In this document: positions 17,483 to 32,859 of the stretch, one piece after another | Layout of the letters: every line of letters starts with the position of its first letter | Numbering within the stretch: position 1 is the first letter of the stretch | DNA from: Cyanobacterium stanieri PCC 7202 | GTDB lineage: Bacteria > Cyanobacteriota > Cyanobacteriia > Cyanobacteriales > Cyanobacteriaceae | Direction: 5' to 3' | DNA length: 64,000 nucleotides | Assembly (NCBI GenBank): GCA_000317655.1 | Contig: CP003940.1 | Span: 1,178,001-1,242,000, forward strand | The notes under the pieces: model-generated | What the model was told of the DNA's origin: nothing | Databases searched by the model: none | Seen by the model: the letters and a program-made list of their open reading frames with translations, nothing else | Translations under genes and position numbers: made by a program

Positions 17483-17527
17483 ATTTACGGTCAAAAAACT
17501 GTTGATTTGTGCTGTAGGTCGGAGGGT

Positions 17528-18262
17528 ATTTCCCACAATTCCACTACCCCGAAGGATAGCGACTTGAACACCCAATCAGCCTACTGGTTACTCAAATTCC
17601 TAAAGGGCAGTTTCCAATAATTCCACTACCCCGAAGGATAGCGACTTCCTACTTACTGGGAGGGGGTAGCATTATGCTCCGGTCCGTTTCCAATAATTCC
17701 ACTACCCCGAAGGATAGCGACAGTGAACCAGAGTGTCGTCGTACCAACCCCAAAGATAAAATGTTTCCAATAATTCCACTACCCCGAAGGGTAGCGACCC
17801 CATAGTTATGAGCTACAAGCGGAGCAGGCTAAGTCTCAAGCGTTTCCAATAATTCCACTACCCCGAAGGGTAGCGACAAGCAACCTAGTAAGCGTTGTAG
17901 TAAGTCGGGGTCTTGGGTTTCCAATAATTCCACTACCCCGAAGGGTAGCGACGGAAGCGGAGGCCGCCCGAGAAGAACGTGAGACGCTCGAGTGGTTTCC
18001 AATAATTCCACTACCCCGAAGGGTAGCGACTGAACTCTCTAACCCTGTAGGAAACATCGAGGAGCATGATGTGTTTCCAATAATTCCACTACCCCGAAGG
18101 GTAGCGACCTTTCAAGCAAAAGTAGTCAGTAAAAAAGATCCTTAGTTTCCAATAATTCCACTACCCCGAAGGGTAGCGACCTGTACCTTTTCCTACATGA
18201 GTAGTTAAATATCCCGCAGAAGTCGTGTTTCCAATAATTCCACTACCCCGAAGGGTAGCGAC
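17528..18262 (-). CRISPR. CRISPR array, 10 repeats of 36 bp and 9 spacers
   Basis: Repeats (plus-strand coordinates) start at 17528, 17610, 17686, 17763, 17842, 17917, 17995, 18073, 18145 and 18227. Spacers are 36-46 bp. The transcript direction is inferred as minus: read that way the repeat begins GTCGCTACCC, forms a six-pair stem closed by a TTCG tetraloop, and ends TTATTGGAAAC, a usual GAAAC-type handle. The repeat at 17528 is degenerate at its 3' end (crRNA sense), as expected for the leader-distal end. Repeats 1-3 share one substitution (GAAGGATAG instead of GAAGGGTAG) that keeps pairing as G-U. The array belongs to the III-B locus beside it. No cas6 was found. Confidence 0.97.
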
Positions 18263-18442
18263 CCCCCTATTTTAACCCCTTGCTCTGCTTACTGTCCAGC
18301 GCACCTTAGCGAACCTTAGCAAAACTTAAACAAAATGACCTTTGAAATTATTAAAATGGATACCTCAATCCCTTGTGTCATAAGAAGTCGAGGGATATAA
18401 CGAGTTTTGGTTGTTTGAGGAGTTTTCAGCTATCCCTCGCAA
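18263..18442 (-). promoter_or_regulatory. probable CRISPR leader
   Basis: This 180-bp stretch lies between cas2 and the least-diverged repeat, on the side opposite the degenerate repeat, so it should hold the array promoter. It contains an inverted repeat CGAGGGATA (18389-18397) and TATCCCTCG (18431-18439), and short direct repeats ACCTTAGCRAA (about 18303-18320). No ORF is present. Confidence 0.65.
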
Positions 18443-18724
18443 TTAGATAACCTTTGATTTTGGGGGATTTGTGGGGGGCGAACCTTGTCCCCATGTTTCT
18501 ACCTGTCTGAGGGTATGATCAGAAATGGGGTAAAATCTGAGATTGTCTTCCTCCTGTTTAAAAACTCTTTTTAACTTTTTTTTCAACTCCCGATATTGCT
18601 TAACATTTAAAACACATTCAAAAACGCTATACTGCACCCTCACTCCATAACCTTCGAGGATGTCCGCTATTTTTTTTCGGCGTTTGTCGTCGGTGATGTC
18701 ATAAACGACTATATAAAAAAGCAT
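18443..18724 (-). CDS. cas2: CRISPR-associated endoribonuclease Cas2
   Basis: I set the start at the ATG at 18724 (93 residues); the longer frame to 18811 only overlaps cas1. The N-terminus MLFYIVVYDITDDKRRKKIADIL is the Cas2 beta-strand with the conserved metal aspartate (D9), followed by GYGVRVQYSVFEC. With Cas1 it forms the spacer integration complex. The ATG overlaps the cas1 TGA (TGATG), so the two are translationally coupled. The C-terminal tail (WGQGSPPTNPPKSKVI) is slightly extended. Confidence 0.95.
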   Translation of the reverse strand: MLFYIVVYDITDDKRRKKIADILEGYGVRVQYSVFECVLNVKQYRELKKKLKRVFKQEEDNLRFYPISDHTLRQVETWGQGSPPTNPPKSKVI

Positions 18725-19716
18725 CAGCGAATACGATGGGGTTGATACCCAAAAGCAGGATGATAAACAAAATTTTTGTAGCATCTTACCTGTCTGGTTA
18801 ACAAATCCCAACGGGGTTGTTTAGTTTCCCTACCCGTATCGATTAATTCCTCCATCCTTTGGATGAAAGCATTTAAAAACTTTTTTCTACCACTGTTGTT
18901 AAGATAACAACCGCCATGCTTAAAAGTAAAATCATCCACGGCGTTGATGGTATTTTTGTTAACCAAATAAAGTACTAAAGAATCGATAATGGAAGCCCGA
19001 AACTCCTCTACTAAGTCAGACGCTAAGACAGGATGACGCTCATTTGGTTGATGGAGACAACCATAATAGGGATCTAATCCTTGTAATTCAACCAATACAA
19101 GAAGGTGATTCCAAAGAATTTGATAACCAAAACTCAGAAGGGCATTAACAGGATTACCCGGAGGGCGACGACTACGCCCAAAAAAGATAAAGTCAGGATT
19201 CGTCATACATTGCCCCAAGGCGGAAAAGTAAGCACTTGCCCCAGCACCTTCATAACCCATTAATTTTTCAATGGTGGAGGTTTGAGCGACTTTTTCTATT
19301 AAATAACTAAGGATATTGAGGGTGTGGGATACATCGATAGATGGTTTTCGTTGTTGTTGCCGACGCAAAATAACCCGACTATTGGCTAATTTAGCTTTAA
19401 CTATATCTCGGGCAACTATTAATTGATCCCCCATTTCTAAGAGTTGTTGATAACGACTTAGATAGCGATAGCCCCTTTCAATGGCAACAGTGCGCCCATA
19501 ACAGTAACCCATTCTGGATAGATAAACGATGGGGATATTTTTCTTTAAACAAGCGCGAATGGCTTGGGTGGTGATTTGGGATTTACCCATGATCACAATT
19601 TGTTCAATCAAGGGCAGTTGTACTTCTTCAAGGATGTTGTTACCATGTTTTACGATCAACAATTCTTTTTTGAGGGATAAATAACAACCCTGTTGCGATA
19701 CATAAACTGTATTCAT
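18724..19716 (-). CDS. cas1: CRISPR-associated endonuclease Cas1
   Basis: The protein has 330 residues. Catalytic metal residues are visible: E156 (YEGAGASAYF), H222 (CLHQPNERHP) and D234/E237 (ASDLVEEFR). It integrates new spacers with Cas2. The N-terminal beta-domain begins MNTVYVSQQGCYLSLKKE. The start ATG overlaps the stop of the upstream Csx18-like gene by four bases (ATGA). There is no fusion to reverse transcriptase, although such fusions are common in type III adaptation. Confidence 0.97.
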   Translation of the reverse strand: MNTVYVSQQGCYLSLKKELLIVKHGNNILEEVQLPLIEQIVIMGKSQITTQAIRACLKKNIPIVYLSRMGYCYGRTVAIERGYRYLSRYQQLLEMGDQLIVARDIVKAKLANSRVILRRQQQRKPSIDVSHTLNILSYLIEKVAQTSTIEKLMGYEGAGASAYFSALGQCMTNPDFIFFGRSRRPPGNPVNALLSFGYQILWNHLLVLVELQGLDPYYGCLHQPNERHPVLASDLVEEFRASIIDSLVLYLVNKNTINAVDDFTFKHGGCYLNNSGRKKFLNAFIQRMEELIDTGRETKQPRWDLLTRQVRCYKNFVYHPAFGYQPHRIR

Positions 19717-20021
19717 TCATCCTCAAGGTTTCTGAGTCGATTAAGTTCCATCTCCATTTTTTGAGCGGAGGAAATTTGCCCTGTTTTGATCTCTCTATAA
19801 GGGTAATCGAGAAAATTGATCACGGGGGATTTTATTAACCAAAGAGTAATCAAATCAAATATAAATGTCACCACTAGGGTGGCGATGGTAATGGCGATGG
19901 TGGTGGTAATCACCCCTGCTAATCCCATGGGCGCAACTAATAACAGCACTAGGGTGACAATGCCATTCCCCAAAGCCACAGCAATACTTTTAATCAGGCT
20001 TCCTTTGCAAGAAATTAACAT
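19713..20021 (-). CDS. small membrane protein, Csx18-like
   Basis: The protein has 102 residues with two hydrophobic helices (about 9-40 and 42-67) and a charged C-terminal tail (KMEMELNRLRNLEDE). The N-terminus, with AVALGNGIVTLVLLLVAPMG followed by LAGVI, resembles the cyanobacterial CRISPR-associated Csx18 family as I remember it. It overlaps cas1 by four bases and is therefore translationally coupled to it. It may tie spacer acquisition or the CRISPR response to the membrane; function is not established. Alternative: an unrelated small membrane protein. Confidence 0.6.
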   Translation of the reverse strand: MLISCKGSLIKSIAVALGNGIVTLVLLLVAPMGLAGVITTTIAITIATLVVTFIFDLITLWLIKSPVINFLDYPYREIKTGQISSAQKMEMELNRLRNLEDE

Positions 20022-20036: not shown

Positions 20037-20351
20037 TTAAATATCCGATGAATCGTTATTCTTTAATTTGTCTTTAGCGTTTTGAATGGCGATAGAGTTA
20101 TCGATGGTGGCAATAAAGGAGGCTAATAATGAGTATTTTTGTCCTCTTTCAAAGGCTTCTCTGTTAGTCATACTCGAAGGAGTTGTTATTACAAAAAAAC
20201 TAACTAATACCAAAAAAACTCTAGCCAAGGCACCCCATCTTCTGGTGTGGATGTAACCTGCTGCGGGCGATAAGATAAAACATAATGCAATATTTGACCA
20301 AATTGATCTGTTGGATAGGTAAATGGTTTGTTTGTCGTGATGATGTTCCAT
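20037..20351 (-). CDS. small membrane protein of the cas1-cas2 operon
   Basis: The protein has 104 residues. It has a His-rich start (MEHHHDKQ), two hydrophobic segments (about 18-34 and 41-56) with the linking LSPAAGYIHTRRWG turn, reminiscent of TM2-type proteins, and a polar C-terminus. It lies 15 bp upstream of the Csx18-like gene on the same strand, so it is the first gene of the cas1-cas2 operon. I do not recognise it further. A 13-bp motif shared with the cas10 promoter lies about 110 bp upstream. Confidence 0.6.
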   Translation of the reverse strand: MEHHHDKQTIYLSNRSIWSNIALCFILSPAAGYIHTRRWGALARVFLVLVSFFVITTPSSMTNREAFERGQKYSLLASFIATIDNSIAIQNAKDKLKNNDSSDI

Positions 20352-20564: not shown

Positions 20565-21230
20565 TTAATTGTGTAACAGTTGTTTTTCGAGAAGGGGATA
20601 TTCACAATCTCCTGTTTTTCTGACATATTCGATATAGCTTTGTATTAGTTTTTCGTCTCTGGTGATGATTCTTTTTTTTCTGGGATTGAGTTGGGGGTTA
20701 TTTTGTTCTGGAGATGGATTGTTTTCGGGGCAAGAGGAGTAAATTTCTTGGTTGATGGGGATAACGGTTTCAGGGTTATTCCCAAAATTATGGTGATGGG
20801 GAATAAAGTCATTTGCTACAATATTGTGGGCGGGGGGAGTATAGGGATTTTCTAGGTAGATGACATAGTTATGATTTTCAGGGTTAATATTTGGTGAGAA
20901 TGGATAGTTATGGTTGTCGTCTGGGGTTTTTTCTTCTTCGGTGGCGGGGGAGGGTTCGTTATTGGACAATAATTCTTCTTCTAATGAATCATCAGGATTT
21001 GATGTCATCATGGGTTCTGAGTTTTGAGAAGGTGTAATTTTCTCTGAGGTTTTGGATGATTTTTCAGGGGGTGTTGGTAGGTGGGGAAATGGGGGTAGTT
21101 TTCTGGGTTGGGTGAGTTGTTGTTGATGTTGTTCAAAAAGATTGATTATTTCTGGATGGGGGAAGATTCCTGTTTGTTGTACTTCGTCAATGAATGCTCT
21201 AAGGAGAGTTGCGTTGCGATTGTTGTTCAT
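20565..21230 (-). CDS. disordered protein with a motif repeated at both ends, CRISPR island
   Basis: The protein has 221 residues. A short helical motif at the N-terminus (LRAFIDEVQQTGIFPHPEI) is repeated at the C-terminus (IQSYIEYVRKTGDCEYPLL), with TG and P at the same positions. Between them are about 150 residues rich in Pro, Asn, Glu and Ser without predicted fold. It could be a tether or two-site adaptor. It lies on the cas1 side of the island between membrane protein genes. I do not recognise the family. Confidence 0.6.
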   Translation of the reverse strand: MNNNRNATLLRAFIDEVQQTGIFPHPEIINLFEQHQQQLTQPRKLPPFPHLPTPPEKSSKTSEKITPSQNSEPMMTSNPDDSLEEELLSNNEPSPATEEEKTPDDNHNYPFSPNINPENHNYVIYLENPYTPPAHNIVANDFIPHHHNFGNNPETVIPINQEIYSSCPENNPSPEQNNPQLNPRKKRIITRDEKLIQSYIEYVRKTGDCEYPLLEKQLLHN

Positions 21231-21249
21231 GGTTGTTATGGTATGGGTT

Positions 21250-21282
21250 GATTCCCCCTATCCCCCCTTAATAAGGGGATTG
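21250..21282. repeat. C-tract/G-tract hairpin repeat, copy 3
   Basis: GATTCCCCC is followed by a second C-tract, TTAATAA and a shortened G-tract. It lies in the 225-bp gap upstream of the 221-residue gene; a second copy follows at 21348. Confidence 0.65.
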
Positions 21283-21347
21283 AGTTTCTAATGTTATTGA
21301 TTGTTGTTGGCGCTGTTTATTGGGCTTCCTTTTTACCATGGGATTTT

Positions 21348-21380
21348 GATCCCCCCTATCCCCCCTTAATAAGGGGGGGA
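21348..21380. repeat. C-tract/G-tract hairpin repeat, copy 4
   Basis: GATCCCCCC is followed by a second C-tract, TTAATAA and a seven-G tract. It is located directly 3' of the 464-residue membrane protein gene and may end or stabilise its transcript. A fragment resembling the left end of MITE copy B follows at about 21386-21412. Confidence 0.7.
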
Positions 21381-21454: not shown

Positions 21455-22849
21455 CTATTGATTGTGTGCGTTGTCGTTGATTAGGTTTCGCCATTGGGTT
21501 TCTAGCCATAAATCTCTTTTTTGTTTCAATTCCTCATCCCACGATAGTTTTACATATTCGTCTTCGGAGTAATTCCAGGTGATGATACAAGACACAAAAC
21601 TGCTGATTACTGAGAATGATAATATAAACAGGGGCAGGGCGATCGCCCCTAACTCTCCATCAAACAACTTAGTCAAAAAACTATTAGTTGCCAAAGTAAC
21701 CAATTCCAGAGAAGATTTTAACTCCCCTTCAGAGGTGAAATTAGACTGATAAATATTAGGAAAACTACTATCTAAAAACAATAAATCATTACCAACATCA
21801 TTACGAGCAATTAATAAATCATTAAAATCATTTTGAGCATTTTCATAGTTAACAAAAAGCTCATTTTGTAACCGCACCAACTGACGACAGACAGGCAACT
21901 GCTCCATGGGTACATTATTCCAGTCTTGGGTGCGCTCTTGCCATGTGCCGTGCATTTCCGCATACAAAGAATTCCAACGGGGATTAGAACGAGGAATACG
22001 ATTTAATTCCGCCTCTCCCTTTTCACATCGTTCTTTTACCTGTAAATATTGAGGAGAATTAGCATTCTTTAAAAACTCCATATTTTCTTGCTCAATTATC
22101 ATCTGTGCTTCAACAATTTCTTGGGCTTTTACCTCCGTCAATTTTGCCTGATTATTAAATAACTCTACTCCGATGCCCGATGCGACAGATTGAATGACAT
22201 TTAAAATAACTAACCCAGAAAATAACCCCGCTTTTTTGACTAAATGATAATTTTTGTTACTTCTATTAATATTAGTTGATAAATCATTACTAAATTTAAG
22301 AATAATAATATTCATAACAATAGTAATAAAAAACGCAGGGGCATTGCCAAGAGATTTGAAAGCGAAAAACCACAATGGACTATTGCCAAAAAAATCAATT
22401 AAATTACTAACATTAATCAGACGAGAAACCACCACCGCATCATCTCTTACCTTATCAGTGACATAGGATTTGCCATAATATTCCGTGGGGATGCTTAATA
22501 AATGATTTTTGATTATTTTGACGAATAAATTATTTTTTATTTTTTCGATGAATAGATTATCAGGTTGACTTGGTTTTACTTCTCCTTCTCCATCAACCTT
22601 CGCCACCAAGTGGGCATAACGGGGATTAGTTTCAATCCATTTAATTAAGGCTATATAATCAGGTACTTCTTTGATATTTTCCTCTGTTTCTTCTTGTTCA
22701 ATTACTTCTAAAGCCTCAATTTCGGGAGTTTGTTTTTCTTGGCTAGATGATTGGACTACCTCTATTTCATGTAAATCGGATGACTCAATAGTAATCATTT
22801 CTTTATTTATTTCGTTATTTTCTGCCAAAAACTCTTGGTTATCCATCAA
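21455..22849 (-). CDS. membrane protein with long coiled-coil loop, CRISPR island
   Basis: The protein has 464 residues. It has an acidic, Glu-rich cytosolic N-terminus (1-65) and a soluble region (66-150). Three hydrophobic helices follow at about 155-172, 174-190 and 213-233, then a long charged, probably coiled-coil segment (about 240-390), and a last helix near 398-425 (LPLFILSFSVISSFVSCIITW). Topology (three TM, coiled coil, one TM) resembles DUF4407-type proteins, but I see no sequence signature. It is divergent from cas10 with 170 bp between, so the two may be co-regulated. A membrane effector or sensor is possible; this is inference. Confidence 0.65.
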   Translation of the reverse strand: MMDNQEFLAENNEINKEMITIESSDLHEIEVVQSSSQEKQTPEIEALEVIEQEETEENIKEVPDYIALIKWIETNPRYAHLVAKVDGEGEVKPSQPDNLFIEKIKNNLFVKIIKNHLLSIPTEYYGKSYVTDKVRDDAVVVSRLINVSNLIDFFGNSPLWFFAFKSLGNAPAFFITIVMNIIILKFSNDLSTNINRSNKNYHLVKKAGLFSGLVILNVIQSVASGIGVELFNNQAKLTEVKAQEIVEAQMIIEQENMEFLKNANSPQYLQVKERCEKGEAELNRIPRSNPRWNSLYAEMHGTWQERTQDWNNVPMEQLPVCRQLVRLQNELFVNYENAQNDFNDLLIARNDVGNDLLFLDSSFPNIYQSNFTSEGELKSSLELVTLATNSFLTKLFDGELGAIALPLFILSFSVISSFVSCIITWNYSEDEYVKLSWDEELKQKRDLWLETQWRNLINDNAHNQ

Positions 22850-23049
22850 CTTCCTTCCCTTTTATCTCTCAACAATTACTAAGTTACCCCATAGTTTTGA
22901 TATATATTATTTTTTCAAGCGAATAAGAATATATTTAGTTTTGCAAAGAAAAACAAAGGAATATAAAGAAAATTCACATTCGCTTAAAGTGGGAGACTTT
23001 TCCTAAAAATTGTTTTATATTGAAAAGTATCAAATTAATAAAAATTGAA
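22850..23049. promoter_or_regulatory. divergent promoter region, membrane protein / cas10
   Basis: This AT-rich 200 bp separates the membrane protein start from the cas10 ATG. It contains TCAAGCGAATAAG (22915-22927) and the inverted core ATTCGCTTAAAG (22978-22989), about 50 bp apart. The first motif also lies upstream of the cas1-cas2 operon. The WYL protein encoded at the end of the effector operon is a plausible binder; this is not shown. Confidence 0.45.
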
Positions 23050-24603
23050 ATGGTAGTTTATACAGCAATTACCTTTTCTCCAGTGCAGGGATTTATTGAA
23101 AAATCCCGAAAACTGAGGGATTTGTATGGTGCATCTTTGATTTTGTCTTATCTAAGCAAAAAAATCGTTGATGGTGCAAAGGATAATCAGTGTGAGGTTA
23201 TTTCCCCTGGGTTACCAAAGTTGGCAAAAGGAATGCCTAATCGCATTTTAATCAAAGGGGATTTTCCGCAGGAGTTGGTAAAAGAAACCTTGTTTAACTC
23301 TTGGAAAAAAGTCCTCTGGGAGTGCAAAGCATGGATTGAAAGCCATGTGTCTGATGTGGTTTACACTTGGGATAGAGACTGGGAAATGTGGGCTACCCAC
23401 ACCTGGGAATTTTTTTGGGGGCAGGGGGATTCTATCACTTCCGCCATCGAAGACTTGGAAAGTAACAAGTTATCTCGAGATTGGGTTGGTATTAATTGGA
23501 TTGGTGAAAGTTCTAGTTTAACAGGTACAGATGCGATCGCATTTAACCGTTTAGGTAGTGGACATCGTAACCCAAAAACGTTAAATAAAGCTCAAGATAA
23601 ACAACGGATTGATGATTTTTATAAAAAATTATCCGCAGTTTTAGAAAACAGCACGGAAGAAGCCACCGAAGGCAAAGTTTTAGACTTAAACGAACGATTA
23701 AGCATACCTGAATTAGTCAAAAGATTAATCACTTTACCTAATACTGGGATTCCGCAAAAATTTCCTAAAGAGGATCTTCCCTTTCCCGAGAAATTTAGCG
23801 AATTAAGCCGAAAACCAGATCCCCAAAATAACATTACTGGGCAATGGACAGGATGGTTTATGGGGGATGGTGACAAAGTCGGTGATCATCTTCAAGAATT
23901 ACTTGCCAAACCTGATGGAGAAAAAGAAATTGAAAAATTTAGTCATGCTATGCGTAAATGGGGGGATAATTTAAGTAATAATTTTCCCCGTGATTTAGGT
24001 CGTATTATTTATGCAGGGGGAGATGACTTTTTAGGAGTTATTTATAGTAAGAAAAAAAATGTAGATGATTCCCAAGAATTGAAAAAGAAAGCATTGCAAT
24101 GGCTATCAAATCTTAAGGAAGAATGGCAAAAACACGATCAAGATATTACCCTAAGTGTGGGCTTTGTGTGGGTAGCTGGAAGTGTACCCCAACGGGATGT
24201 TTTACAACATTGTCGAGAGGCGGAAAAAGTCTCGAAAAACAAAGGCAGAAATCGAGTCACTCTGCGTATTGTCTTCAATAGTGGTCAATACGTGGAATGG
24301 ACTGTGCCATGGGATGATCTAGGTTTGTTGTCGGCATATGAAGATAGAGACAAACAAGAAAATTGGGCGCATATTTACAATGATTTAGCTCAATTAAAAG
24401 CTCGTCATGGTATTAGTTTTAATCCTTCTTTAAAATCTGAAAAAGATGTAAGTTTAAGTAAGGCTTTACTAGATATTTATTTTCAGAATAAGGGTGATTA
24501 TCTTTTTACCAAACGTGAAAAAATAGTAGGAGATAAAGATCTAAATAATTTTAATATTTGGGTTAATAATTTAATTGAAGTAGGATGGCAGTTGTGCGGT
24601 TAA
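23050..24603 (+). CDS. cmr2: Cas10/Cmr2, type III-B large subunit (HD-less)
   Basis: I chose the ATG at 23050 (517 residues) because MVVYTAITFSPVQGFIEKSRKLRDLYG is the usual start; the TTG at 23020 adds ten unlikely residues. No N-terminal HD nuclease is present, so no target-activated DNase is expected. A degenerate first palm motif (MGDGDKVGD) and an intact second palm GGDD (323-326, about 24016) indicate cyclic oligoadenylate synthesis on target RNA binding. It is the first gene of the cmr operon. The 147-bp gap to cmr3 holds repeats. Confidence 0.93.
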   Translation: MVVYTAITFSPVQGFIEKSRKLRDLYGASLILSYLSKKIVDGAKDNQCEVISPGLPKLAKGMPNRILIKGDFPQELVKETLFNSWKKVLWECKAWIESHVSDVVYTWDRDWEMWATHTWEFFWGQGDSITSAIEDLESNKLSRDWVGINWIGESSSLTGTDAIAFNRLGSGHRNPKTLNKAQDKQRIDDFYKKLSAVLENSTEEATEGKVLDLNERLSIPELVKRLITLPNTGIPQKFPKEDLPFPEKFSELSRKPDPQNNITGQWTGWFMGDGDKVGDHLQELLAKPDGEKEIEKFSHAMRKWGDNLSNNFPRDLGRIIYAGGDDFLGVIYSKKKNVDDSQELKKKALQWLSNLKEEWQKHDQDITLSVGFVWVAGSVPQRDVLQHCREAEKVSKNKGRNRVTLRIVFNSGQYVEWTVPWDDLGLLSAYEDRDKQENWAHIYNDLAQLKARHGISFNPSLKSEKDVSLSKALLDIYFQNKGDYLFTKREKIVGDKDLNNFNIWVNNLIEVGWQLCG

Positions 24604-26614: not shown

Positions 26615-26649
26615 GATCCCCCCCTAACCCCCCCTTAATAAGGGGGGAG
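26615..26649. repeat. C-tract/G-tract hairpin repeat, copy 5
   Basis: GATCCCCCCC, a second C-tract, TTAATAA and six Gs lie in the 151-bp gap between cmr4 and cmr5, inside the effector operon. The hairpin could attenuate or stabilise transcripts and so set subunit ratios (inference). Confidence 0.7.
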
Positions 26650-27126: not shown

Positions 27127-27366
27127 ATGACTCATCAGTTACTACTAAATGTCCCTGAAAATATTTATCAAAAACTTATTAAAAAAGCTAAAAAACAGGG
27201 AGAAACTTTGGAAAATATTGTTCTTAATTACCTAGATCAAGTTAATCTTGAAGCAGAAGAAGATCCTCTCGAGCAATTTATCGGAGCATTTGATAGTAAA
27301 AATAGTGACTGGTTGGAAAATCATGATTACTATTTAGGACATTCTCATGTGGAGTCTATTGATTAA
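27127..27366 (+). CDS. antitoxin of an embedded toxin-antitoxin pair
   Basis: The protein has 79 residues. The N-terminus (LLLNVPENIYQKLIKKAKKQG) is a ribbon-helix-helix-like strand and helix found in cyanobacterial VapB-type antitoxins, and the acidic C-terminus (EAEEDPLEQFIGAFDS) would wrap the toxin. The PIN-domain gene starts 4 bp after its stop. It sits inside the cmr operon, between cmr5 and cmr6-cmr1. Confidence 0.7.
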   Translation: MTHQLLLNVPENIYQKLIKKAKKQGETLENIVLNYLDQVNLEAEEDPLEQFIGAFDSKNSDWLENHDYYLGHSHVESID

Positions 27367-27370
27367 TGCA

Positions 27371-27796
27371 ATGCAAATATCTAACATTTTTGTAGATACT
27401 TCAGGATGGGGTAATTTACTAGATTCCTCCCAAAATTACCATCAGGATGCTGTCAAAATTTATAGACAAATAATTCAGAATAAAAAGAAATTAATTACCA
27501 CTAATTATATTATTTCAGAATTAAGCGTTCTCCTCTCAAGTCCTCTTCATATTCCAAGAGTAAAAATTATTGAGTTTATTAATAGTTTAAAAATATCTAA
27601 CCATGTGAACATAATTCACGTGGATGAATATATAGATAGTTTAGCTTGGGATTTTTTCAAAAATCGTCCTGATAAAAATTGGAGTTTGGTTTATTGTTCT
27701 AGTTTTATTTTAATGAGAGAAAAAAGACTAACTCAAGCATTAACAAATGATCGTCATTTTGAACAAGCTGGACTTATTCGATTACTAAAAAAATAA
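27371..27796 (+). CDS. PIN-domain toxin (VapC-like)
   Basis: I chose the ATG at 27371 (141 residues), which leaves 4 bp after the antitoxin; the earlier ATG at 27347 overlaps it by 20 bp. PIN-fold acidic residues are visible: D in NIFVDTSGW, the E in NYIISELSV, and the late D in ALTNDRHFEQAG. Such toxins cut tRNA or rRNA. Its placement within the CRISPR effector operon suggests it was inserted there and is co-transcribed with Cas genes. Confidence 0.75.
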   Translation: MQISNIFVDTSGWGNLLDSSQNYHQDAVKIYRQIIQNKKKLITTNYIISELSVLLSSPLHIPRVKIIEFINSLKISNHVNIIHVDEYIDSLAWDFFKNRPDKNWSLVYCSSFILMREKRLTQALTNDRHFEQAGLIRLLKK

Positions 27797-27817: not shown

Positions 27818-29425
27818 ATGCCTAATTATAACAATGTACCCCTCATGTTTAGAAGCCAGTTACCAGGGCGCTGTCAAATTCAAAGATTAGTACCAAGGGC
27901 AAATGTACAGGATGCAGAAAGCTGGGCAGATGAATGGGTAGATAAATTAGAGGAAGAAGATTACCAATTTCATGACAAGGTAAAAACAAGGGAATATCAA
28001 TTTACATGGCGCTTTATTACCAACAGTGGGCAAGATGAGGGGGTAATTCGCCCTGTTATCGGTGCGAAGGGATTTCCTTATTTTCCCGGTTCGAGTATGA
28101 AGGGCGCTTTTTGGCGTAGTTGTCCCAAGGATAAACGCGCTTTATATTGTGGTTATGAACAGGATGGAGAAAGTCACCCCGGTATTTTACGTTTTCACGG
28201 GGGTTATCCTGACAAGGAATGGATGTTTGAGGAATTGGTGGATGTGGTGCATCCCCAAGAGGATTGGCAGGTAAAAAATGGTGGTAACCATTCAGCTTTT
28301 ATTCAAATTTCCCTATACAAGCCTAAATTTACTTTTGGTATTACTTCCAAAAAGCCCCTAAGTGATGGAGAATGGAACGAAATTTGGCAAATATGGGAAG
28401 GTGCGATCGCACAGGGACTCGGTACAAGGGTAAGTGCTGGATATGGTCAAGTAAAATTAACAAATCGTCACGAATTAAACTCTCTCCTTACCGTCAACCT
28501 CAAAGGTGAAGGATTAGCCTCCCAATTGATTAATAAAAACGGTGAATTTCGAGCCAATATGTTTAAAGCCGCCTTACGGGGGCATACCCTCAGACTCCTT
28601 GGCGGTGTCACCGATGCCAACACTGCCGAAGCCATCACCAAACAACTTTGGGGAGGATTTGCTGGGAAAAACGGGGCAATAGTGGGAGAATTAGGCATCG
28701 TTTTTGATGCCATTGATTTAGATGTTTATGATTGCACATATAGACCAAACCATCATAGCACCGTTAAAATGCCTTTTTATGAACTCAATAAAGGACAACT
28801 AAATATTATTCGCATGAAAAATATTAGTCAAAAAAGAAGTGAAAAACTAACAAATTTCTTAACTGACTTAATTAAATTTAGTTTGTTATTAGGGGGCTTT
28901 GGTAAATCATGGCGCAGGGCTGAACATTATCTATTTTTTTATGACTATATAAATAGTGGCAGAAAACCCATGATTGGTTGTCATTGGCAAATATTAGAAG
29001 AATCAGAAAATTTACGAGTTTCTATAAATAATCTCGATGACGTTAGAACATTCCTTAATAGTATTCACGAGAATATGAAAAATTGGGTTACGGATCATCA
29101 AAAACGCTTAAATCCCCAAGGTGCAAATTGGCGAGAGAGCTTTAAAAAAGGTAATGTACAAGTATGGGGAAGAATTGCTGAGCATGAAGATGATAGTCGA
29201 GCAATTCATTTTTTCCATGGCAATTATCAAGGTAATAAAACTATCAAACGCTCCATCCTAACAGGAAGAATGGGACATATAGGTAGAATCTGGCATAGAA
29301 TGTACCCCCACCAAGGTGAGCAGTATGTAGAGTTGTTAACCATTTTCCCTGATAATAGCCGAGAAACTCGGGAATTTATCCAATATTTACGCTCTAATGT
29401 AAGCGAATTTAAACAACTTTGGTAA
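27818..29425 (+). CDS. Cmr6-Cmr1 fused RAMP protein
   Basis: The protein has 535 residues, about twice a single RAMP subunit. The N-terminal half (about 1-225) has the Cmr6 features PYFPGSSMKGAFWRS and GLGTRVSAGYGQVK. The C-terminal half (about 226-535) has a second RAMP-like part, with FKAALRGHTLRLLGG, LWGGFAG and a Gly-rich LLLGGFGKSWRRAEH loop like Cmr1. With this fusion all Cmr1-6 roles are accounted for in the locus. Fused Cmr1/Cmr6 is, as I recall, part of the III-B variant in Synechocystis 6803. The second half could instead be another Cmr6-like domain. Confidence 0.75.
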   Translation: MPNYNNVPLMFRSQLPGRCQIQRLVPRANVQDAESWADEWVDKLEEEDYQFHDKVKTREYQFTWRFITNSGQDEGVIRPVIGAKGFPYFPGSSMKGAFWRSCPKDKRALYCGYEQDGESHPGILRFHGGYPDKEWMFEELVDVVHPQEDWQVKNGGNHSAFIQISLYKPKFTFGITSKKPLSDGEWNEIWQIWEGAIAQGLGTRVSAGYGQVKLTNRHELNSLLTVNLKGEGLASQLINKNGEFRANMFKAALRGHTLRLLGGVTDANTAEAITKQLWGGFAGKNGAIVGELGIVFDAIDLDVYDCTYRPNHHSTVKMPFYELNKGQLNIIRMKNISQKRSEKLTNFLTDLIKFSLLLGGFGKSWRRAEHYLFFYDYINSGRKPMIGCHWQILEESENLRVSINNLDDVRTFLNSIHENMKNWVTDHQKRLNPQGANWRESFKKGNVQVWGRIAEHEDDSRAIHFFHGNYQGNKTIKRSILTGRMGHIGRIWHRMYPHQGEQYVELLTIFPDNSRETREFIQYLRSNVSEFKQLW

Positions 29426-29491: not shown

Positions 29492-30229
29492 ATGGCAATA
29501 ATATTACTATCTTTTGTGGGGAAACAAGATCCTTTTCCACAAAAAAACCAAGAAGAAGGATCAATTGTTACTCTCATCAAAGAATTATCGCAACAAAATC
29601 AAACCATCAAAAATGCCATTTTATTACATACCCAAGGCACATCCACAGAAGCAGAATTAACCAGAGAGTGGATACGAGAAAACTACTCTTGTGATGCTAT
29701 ACAACTAATTCCCGTTAGGAATGAATTATCAGATGATCCCGTTAATTTAACCTTAGCCATACAAGAAGCAAAAAAAGCTCTGAATATAGCTCACAAATTA
29801 CAACAAAAAGGAGATACATTAGCATTTAATGCCTCTTCTGGTACCCCTGTAATGAAATCCACTTGGGCTATCTTGCAAAGTGCAGGTTATGCACCCCATA
29901 GCAATGTATGGCAAGTTAGAAATCCCTATCAATTAAAATCCAATCAAGAGCGAGTTTTTCCTACTAATTTAAATAGTCTTAAAAAGGAATTTGATTTACA
30001 AATTATTTCCAAGCAAATTAAAAATTATAATTACAGTTCTGCTTTATTAACTATTAAAAATAGTAGCTTATATCATCCTAAAATTGAGGATGCCATTAAT
30101 TATGGAAAGTTGAGACTATCTTTTAATTTTGATGACGCTTATAGCCTTGTTAATAAACATGATGATAAGGTTATGAAAAATTTAGCTAATGAACTTGGGG
30201 AATTAAGAAAAAAAACTTACTTGCCTTGA
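29492..30229 (+). CDS. CARF-domain cyclic oligoadenylate sensor (N-terminal part of a Csm6/Csx1-like effector)
   Basis: The protein has 245 residues. The CARF Rossmann features are an N-terminal LLSFVGKQD strand, the LLHTQGT strand end, and the loop N113-A-S-S-G-T-P-V-M-K122, the nucleotide-binding loop of CARF proteins (SGTPxM type). A helical linker fills about 160-245. The frame ends at TGA 30227, just after an A8 tract. The HEPN nuclease domain continues in the -1 frame (30226-30753); read together they give a protein of about 420 residues, the usual Csm6 size. I therefore treat them as one effector. Confidence 0.8.
   Translation: MAIILLSFVGKQDPFPQKNQEEGSIVTLIKELSQQNQTIKNAILLHTQGTSTEAELTREWIRENYSCDAIQLIPVRNELSDDPVNLTLAIQEAKKALNIAHKLQQKGDTLAFNASSGTPVMKSTWAILQSAGYAPHSNVWQVRNPYQLKSNQERVFPTNLNSLKKEFDLQIISKQIKNYNYSSALLTIKNSSLYHPKIEDAINYGKLRLSFNFDDAYSLVNKHDDKVMKNLANELGELRKKTYLP
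30208..30214 (+). other. candidate -1 frameshift site (A_AAA_AAA)
   Basis: An eight-A tract (30208-30215) has the zero-frame phase A AAA AAA, the slippery heptamer class used for -1 frameshifting, with a stop (TGA) 13 bases further. Slipping back one base continues as KNLLALIKEVYF into the HEPN frame. Transcript slippage adding one A would do the same. I did not see a clear downstream pseudoknot. Confidence 0.6.
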
Positions 30230-30753: not shown

Positions 30754-30759
30754 TTGCAT

Positions 30760-32859
30760 ATGTTATGTCACTTTTTAATCGGTGTACCAGCTTCGGGAAA
30801 ATCGACTTTTGCTAAATTATTAAGCCAATATTCTCTGGGTCAAATTATTTCCACTGACACCATTCGAGAGGAACTTTATGGAGATGAAATAATACAGGGA
30901 AATTGGCAGGAAATAGAGCAAAAAGTTATTGAGCAAATTAAACAAGCCTATGACAAAAATTTGCCAATAATTTATGATGCGACTAATACAAAAAGACCAT
31001 GGAGAGTTGATTTTTTAAATAAAGTACGAGAAAGGGTTGGTAAAATTGATTGGGTGGCATGGTATCTCAATCCTGATGTGGATATTTGTAAAAGGCGTAA
31101 TAGAGAAAGGGATAGACAAGTGCCAGAATATGTTATCGATGACATGGCAGAGTCTTTGAGGAGGTTTCCTCCTCATGTGGCAGAGGGTTTTATTCATATA
31201 TACGAAGTTAAAGCCGATACTCCATACAAGTTATCTTTTATTACCAAGAAATTAGACTCGTTAAATCGTCGGATTATCAATAGGCATAATCGCACTAATG
31301 TAGATAATATTACCCTCCATCGTTATTCTCGGTTAATGGATTTCGATCGCCTCTTACACCTTATTTCTCTCCTCGCTTCTTATCCTGAGTTGGGAAATTT
31401 ACAATATGCCTACCCTCAAATCATCGAAGATATTTTCGGGGAATTACTTTCTTTTGAGGATTCTATCAGTGAAATAACAGCTATCATGGCAAAATTAAAA
31501 GCTCATATTTATGCTGATAAATTAGCCATTGCTGAGGATTTAAAATTTCTGCAAAATTATGGTTTAGTCAATGGTGGAGAAAAAGATAATAAATACGAGG
31601 AAACTATCATCATTGATCAAGATATGGTAACCCATTATGCTTCTGATAAATATACTTTTGAGAGAATTTTAAATACTATTAAAACAATTCTCCATCATCC
31701 TTTTTTACCTACAGTAGAAGCAGAGTATTTGAATCGATATTTTCCTCAATCTCAATATAAAGATGATCCCACAAAATCTAGTTTATCAGGACATTTGACT
31801 AATTTAACAGTGCATTTAATGGCACAGGAAAAATGTCATATCAAACATCTTAAAGCAAGACGAGATTTACTGCGTAAAGATATTGAATACATCCTTAAAC
31901 CCTATCAAATTTTACCTAATACTATGCGTAATGGTTACTTTCTTGGCACAGGTATTCTTTCTCCACAGGAGTTAATTGATACTTTTCGTCTATTACAAAC
32001 CCAAGCCAAAAATATTGATGATCCTCTTGCTCTTAATTTATATCATGAGTTTGAGCGTAAGATGAGATTAGCCCATTTTGATGATAATTATATTTATCCC
32101 GTAAGGGCGATCGCCAATAGGTCTATGATAGATACTGACAGCTTAGACTCAAAAACCCTGAGTAATCAAACCGAAAGGTTACAAAATTTAATTGAACAAA
32201 GAAAATTGGTCAGACTGAATAAATTTGCCAATCGTGCTAAATATGAAGGAGAGACAAACGGAGGTTTTGACGCTTGGTTATTACAGATAGTGTTTTATAA
32301 CTTTGCATGGTATCTCGGTTTTCAACACCAAGGAGGAGAAAAAGACAAATTATTGCGTTTTGAGCGTTTAGATAGGCTTTATATCGAAAAAGAAATGTCA
32401 GAAACTCAAACCACCACTCAACAAACAAAAGCCTTAAATCGCTTAAATAAACTATTATCAGCCAGTTATGGTATCTATCTTGGAGATGATAGTCATCAAC
32501 AAAAACTCTTTTTAAGTAAGCAGAAAAAAAATGCACAAGTAAAAATAGAATTATGGTTTAGTGAGGATATTTTTAAATTTATTGCTGAAGGTACAAAAAG
32601 ATTTTCCCCTACACAAATGAAAATGACTAAACCTTCTTTTGGTGGTTATAATTCCTCTGTATTTAGTTTAGATAAAAGCCCTGATAATAACAAGCCTTAT
32701 CGTTTTCAAGTGACATTACCTACATGGTCATTAAATGATTTTGATTTCATTCGTTGGATATTAGGTTTTGGTGGTCAGGTAAAAGTGCATCAACCAGAGA
32801 TATTAAGGTCAAAAATTATTGAACTTTCAAGAAGTACCATTGATGTTTATCTGTACTAA
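30760..32859 (+). CDS. P-loop kinase fused to a WYL domain
   Basis: I set the start at the ATG at 30760, 6 bp after the HEPN stop (699 residues; numbers here count from the preceding TTG). The N-terminal domain (1-170) is a polynucleotide-kinase-like P-loop: GVPASGKST (10-18), STDTIREELYGD (33-44) and DATNTKR (75-81). The middle region (about 185-480) is helical. At 519-521 is WYL, followed by the RFERLDRLY strand (534-542), the WYL-domain signature. WYL domains bind nucleotides or regulate CRISPR operons in cyanobacteria. It ends the effector operon. Regulator, second-messenger kinase or RNA end kinase are all possible. Confidence 0.75.
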   Translation: MLCHFLIGVPASGKSTFAKLLSQYSLGQIISTDTIREELYGDEIIQGNWQEIEQKVIEQIKQAYDKNLPIIYDATNTKRPWRVDFLNKVRERVGKIDWVAWYLNPDVDICKRRNRERDRQVPEYVIDDMAESLRRFPPHVAEGFIHIYEVKADTPYKLSFITKKLDSLNRRIINRHNRTNVDNITLHRYSRLMDFDRLLHLISLLASYPELGNLQYAYPQIIEDIFGELLSFEDSISEITAIMAKLKAHIYADKLAIAEDLKFLQNYGLVNGGEKDNKYEETIIIDQDMVTHYASDKYTFERILNTIKTILHHPFLPTVEAEYLNRYFPQSQYKDDPTKSSLSGHLTNLTVHLMAQEKCHIKHLKARRDLLRKDIEYILKPYQILPNTMRNGYFLGTGILSPQELIDTFRLLQTQAKNIDDPLALNLYHEFERKMRLAHFDDNYIYPVRAIANRSMIDTDSLDSKTLSNQTERLQNLIEQRKLVRLNKFANRAKYEGETNGGFDAWLLQIVFYNFAWYLGFQHQGGEKDKLLRFERLDRLYIEKEMSETQTTTQQTKALNRLNKLLSASYGIYLGDDSHQQKLFLSKQKKNAQVKIELWFSEDIFKFIAEGTKRFSPTQMKMTKPSFGGYNSSVFSLDKSPDNNKPYRFQVTLPTWSLNDFDFIRWILGFGGQVKVHQPEILRSKIIELSRSTIDVYLY

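Follow-up and report, generated by a model that had tools for sequence, protein, structure and literature searches.

What does a small protein with two matching ends and little apparent structure between them do beside a membrane protein in a CRISPR locus of Cyanobacterium stanieri PCC 7202? The window analysed here is a stretch of 64,000 nucleotides of this genome (contig CP003940.1, positions 1,178,001 to 1,242,000), and positions are counted from its first letter. A first-pass annotation had read the protein as a bivalent linker bridging two copies of a partner, possibly the membrane proteins beside it; the open reading frame, both end segments and their coordinates were as it gave them. 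The genes of the locus are the following.

17517..18263, strand not assigned: CRISPR array, 10 repeats
18443..18811, minus strand: Cas2
18724..19716, minus strand: Cas1
19713..20021, minus strand: Csx18
20037..20351, minus strand: small membrane protein, 104 aa (sister-species homologue)
20565..21230, minus strand: two-ended protein C3a123, 221 aa, PADLOC PDLC01073 (E 5.1e-58, residues 4-221)
21455..22849, minus strand: membrane protein C3a124, PADLOC PDLC01074, 464 aa, TTG start as called (E 3.2e-185)
23020..24603, plus strand: Cas10/Cmr2 of a type III-B module

Along the minus strand, the gene order is C3a124, C3a123, the small membrane protein, Csx18, Cas1, Cas2 and the CRISPR array, and the type III-B effector operon that starts at 23020 runs in the opposite direction to C3a123 and C3a124, with Cmr3, a RAMP protein, Cmr5 and another RAMP protein 3' of Cas10/Cmr2, ending at 29425. 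The two-ended protein lies in a type III CRISPR locus and also adjoins C3a124. It covers the PDLC01073 model in full (positions 1-164 of 164), with both of its ends inside the family model, and the upstream gene covers all of PDLC01074 (positions 1-371 of 371) at the E value given above. PADLOC annotates each of the two families as being of 'unknown function'. C3a123 is counted among the accessory families associated with type III CRISPR and presumably goes back to Shah et al. 2019.

Some other elements of the locus deserve mention. The 104-aa small membrane protein is 84% identical to its homologue in the sister species (L075), and a weak relative (29%) is found in one other C3a124 locus (L058). 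A repeated element, TTGATCCCCCCTATCCCCCCTTAATAAGGGG, is present at 21248-21278 and 21346-21376, upstream of the two-ended gene, and at 26615-26645 in the Cmr operon. Inside the same operon, two small open reading frames (27127-27796, plus strand) resemble by eye a putative antitoxin and a putative PIN-type toxin. The 245-aa protein encoded at 29492-30229 (plus strand) matches positions 1-244 of the 410 of a CARF-HEPN model and seems to be a CARF protein without the nuclease domain.

The likeness of the two ends of C3a123 proved to be real. The conserved unit, whose consensus is approximately LLxxFIxxVxxTGxxxYPxL and extends beyond the pattern first noticed, is a helix-turn-helix module of about 27 residues, present in two copies that flank a long tether.

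21129..21209, minus strand: N-terminal module copy, residues 8-34, TLLRAFIDEVQQTGIFPHPEIINLFEQ, helix-turn-helix (profile, AlphaFold2, dN/dS)
20661..21110, minus strand: disorder-like tether, residues 41-190 (composition, pLDDT, dN/dS)
20571..20651, minus strand: C-terminal module copy, residues 194-220, KLIQSYIEYVRKTGDCEYPLLEKQLLH, helix-turn-helix (profile, AlphaFold2, codon changes)

When the ends were shuffled, the observed local end-to-end score was attained in 6 of 2000 cases. Since the pattern had been chosen after it was seen, we built a profile from module copies in other loci, comprising 18 copies from other genera and none from the genus of the window. This profile matched the N end at residues 9-31 (i-E 2.5e-7) and the C end at residues 194-215 (i-E 4.1e-8), and over the 436 open reading frames of the window it gave no other match below E 0.3, the runner-up being at E 0.33. 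An earlier profile of 19 copies, one of which came from another locus of the sister species, had the same outcome.

In the AlphaFold2 model of the window protein, helices are predicted at residues 3-20, 26-39, 191-206 and 212-220. In ten-residue blocks, pLDDT is 59-80 over residues 1-40, 62-82 over residues 191-220 and 43-48 over residues 61-180; the mean is 55.7 and pTM is 0.17, with an alignment of just 7 rows, and from the same 7 rows no structure is predicted between the two end units. The middle consists for 70% of P, Q, S, E, K, N, D, T and G, and its charge and hydropathy place it with unfolded proteins. It has a few short, weak stretches in common with relatives. The roughly 150 disordered residues annotated between the ends are borne out by both composition and pLDDT. 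The gene of the sister species has an intact reading frame and is 72% identical. With respect to this species, dN/dS is 0.115 for residues 1-40 and 0.51 for residues 41-185, and the 36 codons of residues 186-221 show 6 synonymous changes and no nonsynonymous one. In this two-species comparison, selection is strongly purifying at each end and relaxed in the middle, which supports the view that both ends matter. The anatomy of a bivalent linker, namely two conserved modules with a flexible tether between them, is therefore present.

The distribution of the module was surveyed around C3a124, which was matched in 18 genomes of a phylum-wide set of 386 and in 59 of a set of 388 from the order. The C3a123 model found, in a phylum set of 386, the genome of the window and one other (G425); two further matches (E 7e-5 and 0.003) covered the middle of the model only, inside 640-aa frames, and were discarded. 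A search of 100 genomes with the protein gave full-length matches in two (G000 and G004), and three of the weak matches (G020, a second one in G004, and G090) were module proteins beside or fused to C3a124. Together with the window, 66 fetched stretches around C3a124 make up 67 loci, a non-random sample with several near-copies. The module usually resides in the gene directly 3' of C3a124 or in the C-terminal tail of C3a124 itself. Scored with a profile seeded by twelve of these segments, including two of the window, the module exceeds 10 bits in 30 loci and reaches 2-10 bits in 17 more, a range into which chance matches also fall.

The classes of the loci (two-ended, one-copy, fused and others) were assigned by hand. 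Strong copies at both ends are found in the window, in L075 (same genus), L057 and L062, and a weak second copy in L070, L071, L117 and Synechocystis PCC 6803 (L174). The second copy of this Synechocystis type scores 3.4-7.2 bits, and shuffled ends reached the observed value in 1116 of 2000 cases for L071 and 352 of 2000 for L117. In 33 loci, a single copy is followed by a helical-looking domain; here the module was recognised above 10 bits in 13, at 2-10 bits in 12 and by eye in 8 (L058-L060, L065, L066, L069, L101 and L103, of which L069 then scored 32.8 bits). The annotation had proposed that the repeat is not functional if homologues keep only one end motif. Such homologues are indeed common in the wider family (the 33 one-copy loci), but not among the close relatives and, since selection acts on both ends, lack of function does not follow from them.

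Several loci depart from these classes. In L056 and L095 the N copy is retained and the C end is a different common stretch, approximately RIILELxLxExAxNL, which is perhaps another docking motif. The module protein of L120 (1-528, minus strand), a neighbour of Cas1 and Cas2, has two closely spaced copies towards its N-terminus, and the contig ends within its gene. L115 and L125 are also cut by contig ends, and L123 is nearly so, with 114 bases of downstream flank. In L127, L131, L137 and L139 the protein in the adaptor position has no recognisable module and a pentapeptide gene is present. L099, L118 and L123 were counted as 'none' in the tree and cassette tallies; L099 encodes a module protein (15.0 bits) and a pentapeptide protein on the opposite strand, at a distance of 2.6 kb. 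L118 (2538-7796, minus strand) shows another order: a helical protein comes first, followed by a pentapeptide protein, by C3a124, whose C-tail looks disordered, and by a large P-loop protein; the helical protein, upstream on the same strand, contains a module-like stretch recognised by eye.

A profile of the module only was run over 149 related genomes, and all 15 matches with E below 1e-8 lie beside or inside C3a124. Among the 14 weaker matches (E 0.011-0.093), three adjoin C3a124 (G050, G072 and G049), one (G058) is the module protein of L099, about 3 kb off, and the remaining ten, away from C3a124, are at about chance level over 149 genomes. Because the profile was seeded from neighbours of C3a124, the informative part of this result is that nothing strong appears elsewhere. 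Databases added little: the module had no relative among solved structures (best E 0.26), the window protein and the module proteins had no match above the cut-off in Pfam or NCBIfam, the best PHROG match was at E 0.0016 (L072), and the stand-alone module proteins of L063 and L065 matched long coiled-coil models of PADLOC weakly, at E 0.0012 and 0.00026, respectively.

The link to the membrane protein that the annotation had suspected is strengthened by adjacency and by natural fusions. The module is fused to the C-terminus of C3a124 in 15 of the 67 loci (L072, L074, L112-L114, L116, L119, L122, L124, L129, L132-L134, L136 and L138); 12 of these calls are above 10 bits, L074 is at 5.5 bits, and L129 and L138 were called by eye. 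C3a124 of L138 is in two frames, and L112-L114 and L116 are near-copies. A tree of 68 C3a124 proteins was made by a quick method and has several long branches; contig-cut rows were left out of the fusion count. On the best tree, the fused rows form 4 groups (4 changes), or 2 when the count is restricted to the strong fusions. The well-supported branches force just 1 fusion change, which leaves room for a single origin; several proven origins had been considered on the basis of at least 3 forced changes, a count that took the contig-cut L115 and L125 as unfused, and were rejected. For the two-ended state the tree requires 2 changes, each of them forced; these may represent a gain and a loss.

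C3a124 has four hydrophobic helices and a helical domain between the third and the fourth. The model of the natural fusion of L072 is confident (pLDDT 89.2, pTM 0.77, 48 rows) and shows, in order, three hydrophobic helices, the helical domain, the fourth hydrophobic helix, the module and further helices that form a bundle; the module, after the last membrane helix, consists of a helix at 402-418, a turn and a helix at 424-468. Foldseek gave no match to this model with E up to 0.001. The best VIA-align row (Z 12.8, rmsd 2.5 over 113 residues, model 441-555) is within reach of unrelated helical bundles and was taken as 'a helical bundle' only; the VIA-align rows fall mostly on residues 196-563 and barely cover the membrane part. 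The C3a124 alignment had no relative among solved structures (best E 0.12), and the best Pfam match over 19 C3a124 proteins was Cytadhesin_P30 (E 0.00077, 3 members).

A probable orientation of C3a124 in the membrane was read from two features, the first of which is a pair of cysteines.

22025..22027, minus strand: Cys275 of C3a124, paired with Cys321 (alignment rows)
21887..21889, minus strand: Cys321 of C3a124, paired with Cys275 (alignment rows)

With a tolerance of 4 alignment columns, and in rows that are related and non-independent, both cysteines are present in 52 of 68 proteins, neither in 16 and a single one in none. The second feature is the loop between helices 2 and 3, which is net positive (+0.12 per residue). 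We read this as a probable disulfide-bearing domain on the extracytoplasmic side; the two tails, and with them the module, would then be cytoplasmic. The C-tail is slightly negative and not net positive, which leaves one loop and the cysteine pair as the basis of this topology.

The survey further revealed that the module marks a wider cyanobacterial cassette, described here for the first time, that comprises C3a124, a module protein and a pentapeptide-repeat protein. Counting pentapeptide genes by our own triplet rule and no profile (the gene of L064 was confirmed by Pfam), we found one no more than 2.6 kb downstream, in the same orientation, in 32 of the 33 one-copy loci; the single miss is L069, where the module protein is on the other strand, 4 kb away. 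The downstream pentapeptide gene is found in none of 7 two-ended loci and neither of the 2 loci with a diverged C end, in 6 of the 13 fused loci with enough flank, and in 4 of the 6 loci classed as module-less, the other two (L099 and L118) having one elsewhere in the locus. In the two-ended locus L062, pentapeptide genes are upstream rather than downstream. A likeness by eye between the module and the F-x3-Y-x2-G-x2-D-F start of pentapeptide proteins was dropped (hhalign probability 1.5%). The window also encodes a 701-aa protein (30754-32859, plus strand) with an N-terminal P-loop region (AAA_33, E 3e-19) and a C-terminal WYL region. Full or partial relatives of it occur in 14 of the 66 fetched C3a124 loci; in L057 and L061 they are divergent and directly upstream of C3a124, a placement from which the 701-aa protein may be a regulator of the cassette.

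With queries limited to the proteins of this system and with short flanks, cas genes of the type found in the window were detected around 14 of the 66 fetched loci and were undetected around 52, so that 14 is a lower bound. At this frequency, CRISPR defence is not a general role of C3a124, and neither C3a124 nor the module looks like a CRISPR protein in general, as far as neighbourhoods can tell. Cas genes accompany 5 of the 8 two-ended loci (the window, L057, L075, L117 and Synechocystis 6803) and 8 of the 33 one-copy loci (L058, L060, L063, L069, L097, L098, L100 and L104); in the fetched flanks of the two-ended loci L062, L070 and L071 none was detected. A putative role of C3a123 in immunity is suggested by its neighbourhood and by its listing in PADLOC.

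Searching plasmid records with the two-ended protein itself gave no match, and named relatives were therefore reached through C3a124, which tblastn found in 13 plasmid records. These include pSYSA of the laboratory strain Synechocystis PCC 6803, pAQ6 of Picosynechococcus PCC 7002 and a plasmid of Cyanobacterium aponinum PCC 10605. The pSYSA pair (WP_011153768 and WP_223211240) is separated by about 7 kb from Cas2 of the III-B system, and both ends are present in the partner protein WP_223211240. On pAQ6, C3a124 is followed by a hypothetical, a pentapeptide-repeat, a WYL and a small hypothetical protein, and these by Csx18, Cas1 and Cas2. Our literature search returned no description of the repeated end modules, of the cassette or of the wider family, and none of C3a124 by name, although the paper that presumably introduced the C3a families may go further than PADLOC does; the Synechocystis tags slr7100-slr7102, extrapolated from slr7097 (alkB homologue), likewise gave no literature.

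Taken together, relatives carry the same module, sometimes fused to C3a124, and C3a123 is thus probably a soluble partner of C3a124. With moderate confidence, we propose that it is the soluble adaptor of a membrane complex whose core is C3a124, docking on C3a124 and tethering it. The end modules would dock on C3a124, at its cytoplasmic face or its tail, or else on one another next to it, and one adaptor would hold two docking sites, by which it could cross-link C3a124 subunits or join C3a124 to a second protein. In the window protein, the second module would take the place of the helical domain of the relatives, the pentapeptide gene being absent, and the pair of C3a123 and C3a124 would presumably be a membrane arm of defence in this type III-B locus.

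The two ends are nevertheless not equivalent. The residue after the motif glycine is I or V in the N copies and D or E in the C copies of all 8 two-ended proteins from 4 genera, a pattern that, counted with one protein per genus, makes the observed labelling the best of just 8 distinct ones. Best scores likewise join N copies with N copies and C copies with C copies (hand-cut segments, again the best labelling of 8), and the second copy as a recent duplicate of the first is consequently unsupported. The residue difference is weak evidence, and no more than suggestive, that the ends may bind different sites or have separate roles. Being consistent, the difference speaks against the simple bridging of two equal sites, and the annotated reading as a whole is partly supported.

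It is possible, if tentative, that the two ends bind different partners, one of them C3a124 and the other a further protein of the locus, for example Csx18, a Cas protein or the small membrane protein. The C3a124 binder would probably be the N copy, which occupies the position common to most of the family. This explanation overlaps with the adaptor proposal and departs from the bridging of two equal partners. It agrees with the I/V and D/E pattern and with the occurrence of two-ended proteins where there is no downstream pentapeptide gene, but the two-ended form also exists where the fetched flanks show no cas gene (the three loci named above), so that the second partner would not always be a CRISPR protein. 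That the N and C hairpins pair into a four-helix domain closing the disordered loop, and so form one composite site and no bivalent linker, we find doubtful. Systematically different copies are what complementary halves would look like, and the module of the fused one-copy relative continues into a helical bundle, which the second copy replaces here; conversely, the model of the window protein shows no confident packing of the ends (its low pTM, from 7 rows, is not a strong test). It is highly improbable that C3a123 is the decaying remnant of a one-copy adaptor, its end likeness dating from an old duplication: the low-complexity middle and the absence of the helical domain and of the downstream pentapeptide gene would fit decay, but the strongly constrained ends, the intact frame in the sister species and the two-ended forms in four genera do not. 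Chance similarity within a disordered protein, which a short motif picked after being seen might invite, is hardly credible given how the foreign-genus profile singles out both ends among the open reading frames of the window.

The adaptor proposal can be compared with known systems. In the part of PMC11229360 that concerns them, the membrane effectors of type III CRISPR systems include Cam1, Csx23 and CorA, of which Cam1 and Csx23 bind a cyclic nucleotide through a soluble domain. As far as those descriptions go, C3a124 is similar in that it, too, is a membrane protein encoded at a type III locus, and differs from Cam1 and Csx23 in that it matched no such nucleotide-binding model in PADLOC or Pfam. 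No CARF model in these two collections matched C3a124 by sequence, and in the fold search the C-terminal helices outweighed the rest of the protein. Conflict systems of cyanobacteria, according to the relevant portions of PMC7159879 and PMC8195603, combine variable modules with small adaptor domains (EAD, TRADD-N), pentapeptide repeats included. Compared by description only, they resemble the C3a124 cassette in their adaptor modules and pentapeptide repeats; no C3a124-like protein is named in those portions of the two papers, nor does CRISPR occur in the main text of PMC8195603. In relation to PADLOC itself, the window protein matches C3a123 over its full length, and C3a124, an entry of a defence database, has here as its commoner setting the cassette with module and pentapeptide-repeat proteins.

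For the biology of these proteins, the adaptor proposal turns two CRISPR-linked families of 'unknown function' into one testable pair, in which the module indicates the residues to change and the natural fusions indicate which proteins act together. If the proposal is right, it would explain why C3a124 occurs without CRISPR in many cyanobacteria, and type III immunity would gain a membrane arm built on multivalent tethering. A bolder and rather unlikely extension is that C3a124 and its partners are a membrane device of cyanobacteria for signalling or as an effector, common outside CRISPR and recruited to type III systems. There the two-ended disordered adaptor would cluster C3a124 through its paired helix-turn-helix modules, and this clustering would be the switch from phage detection to membrane response.
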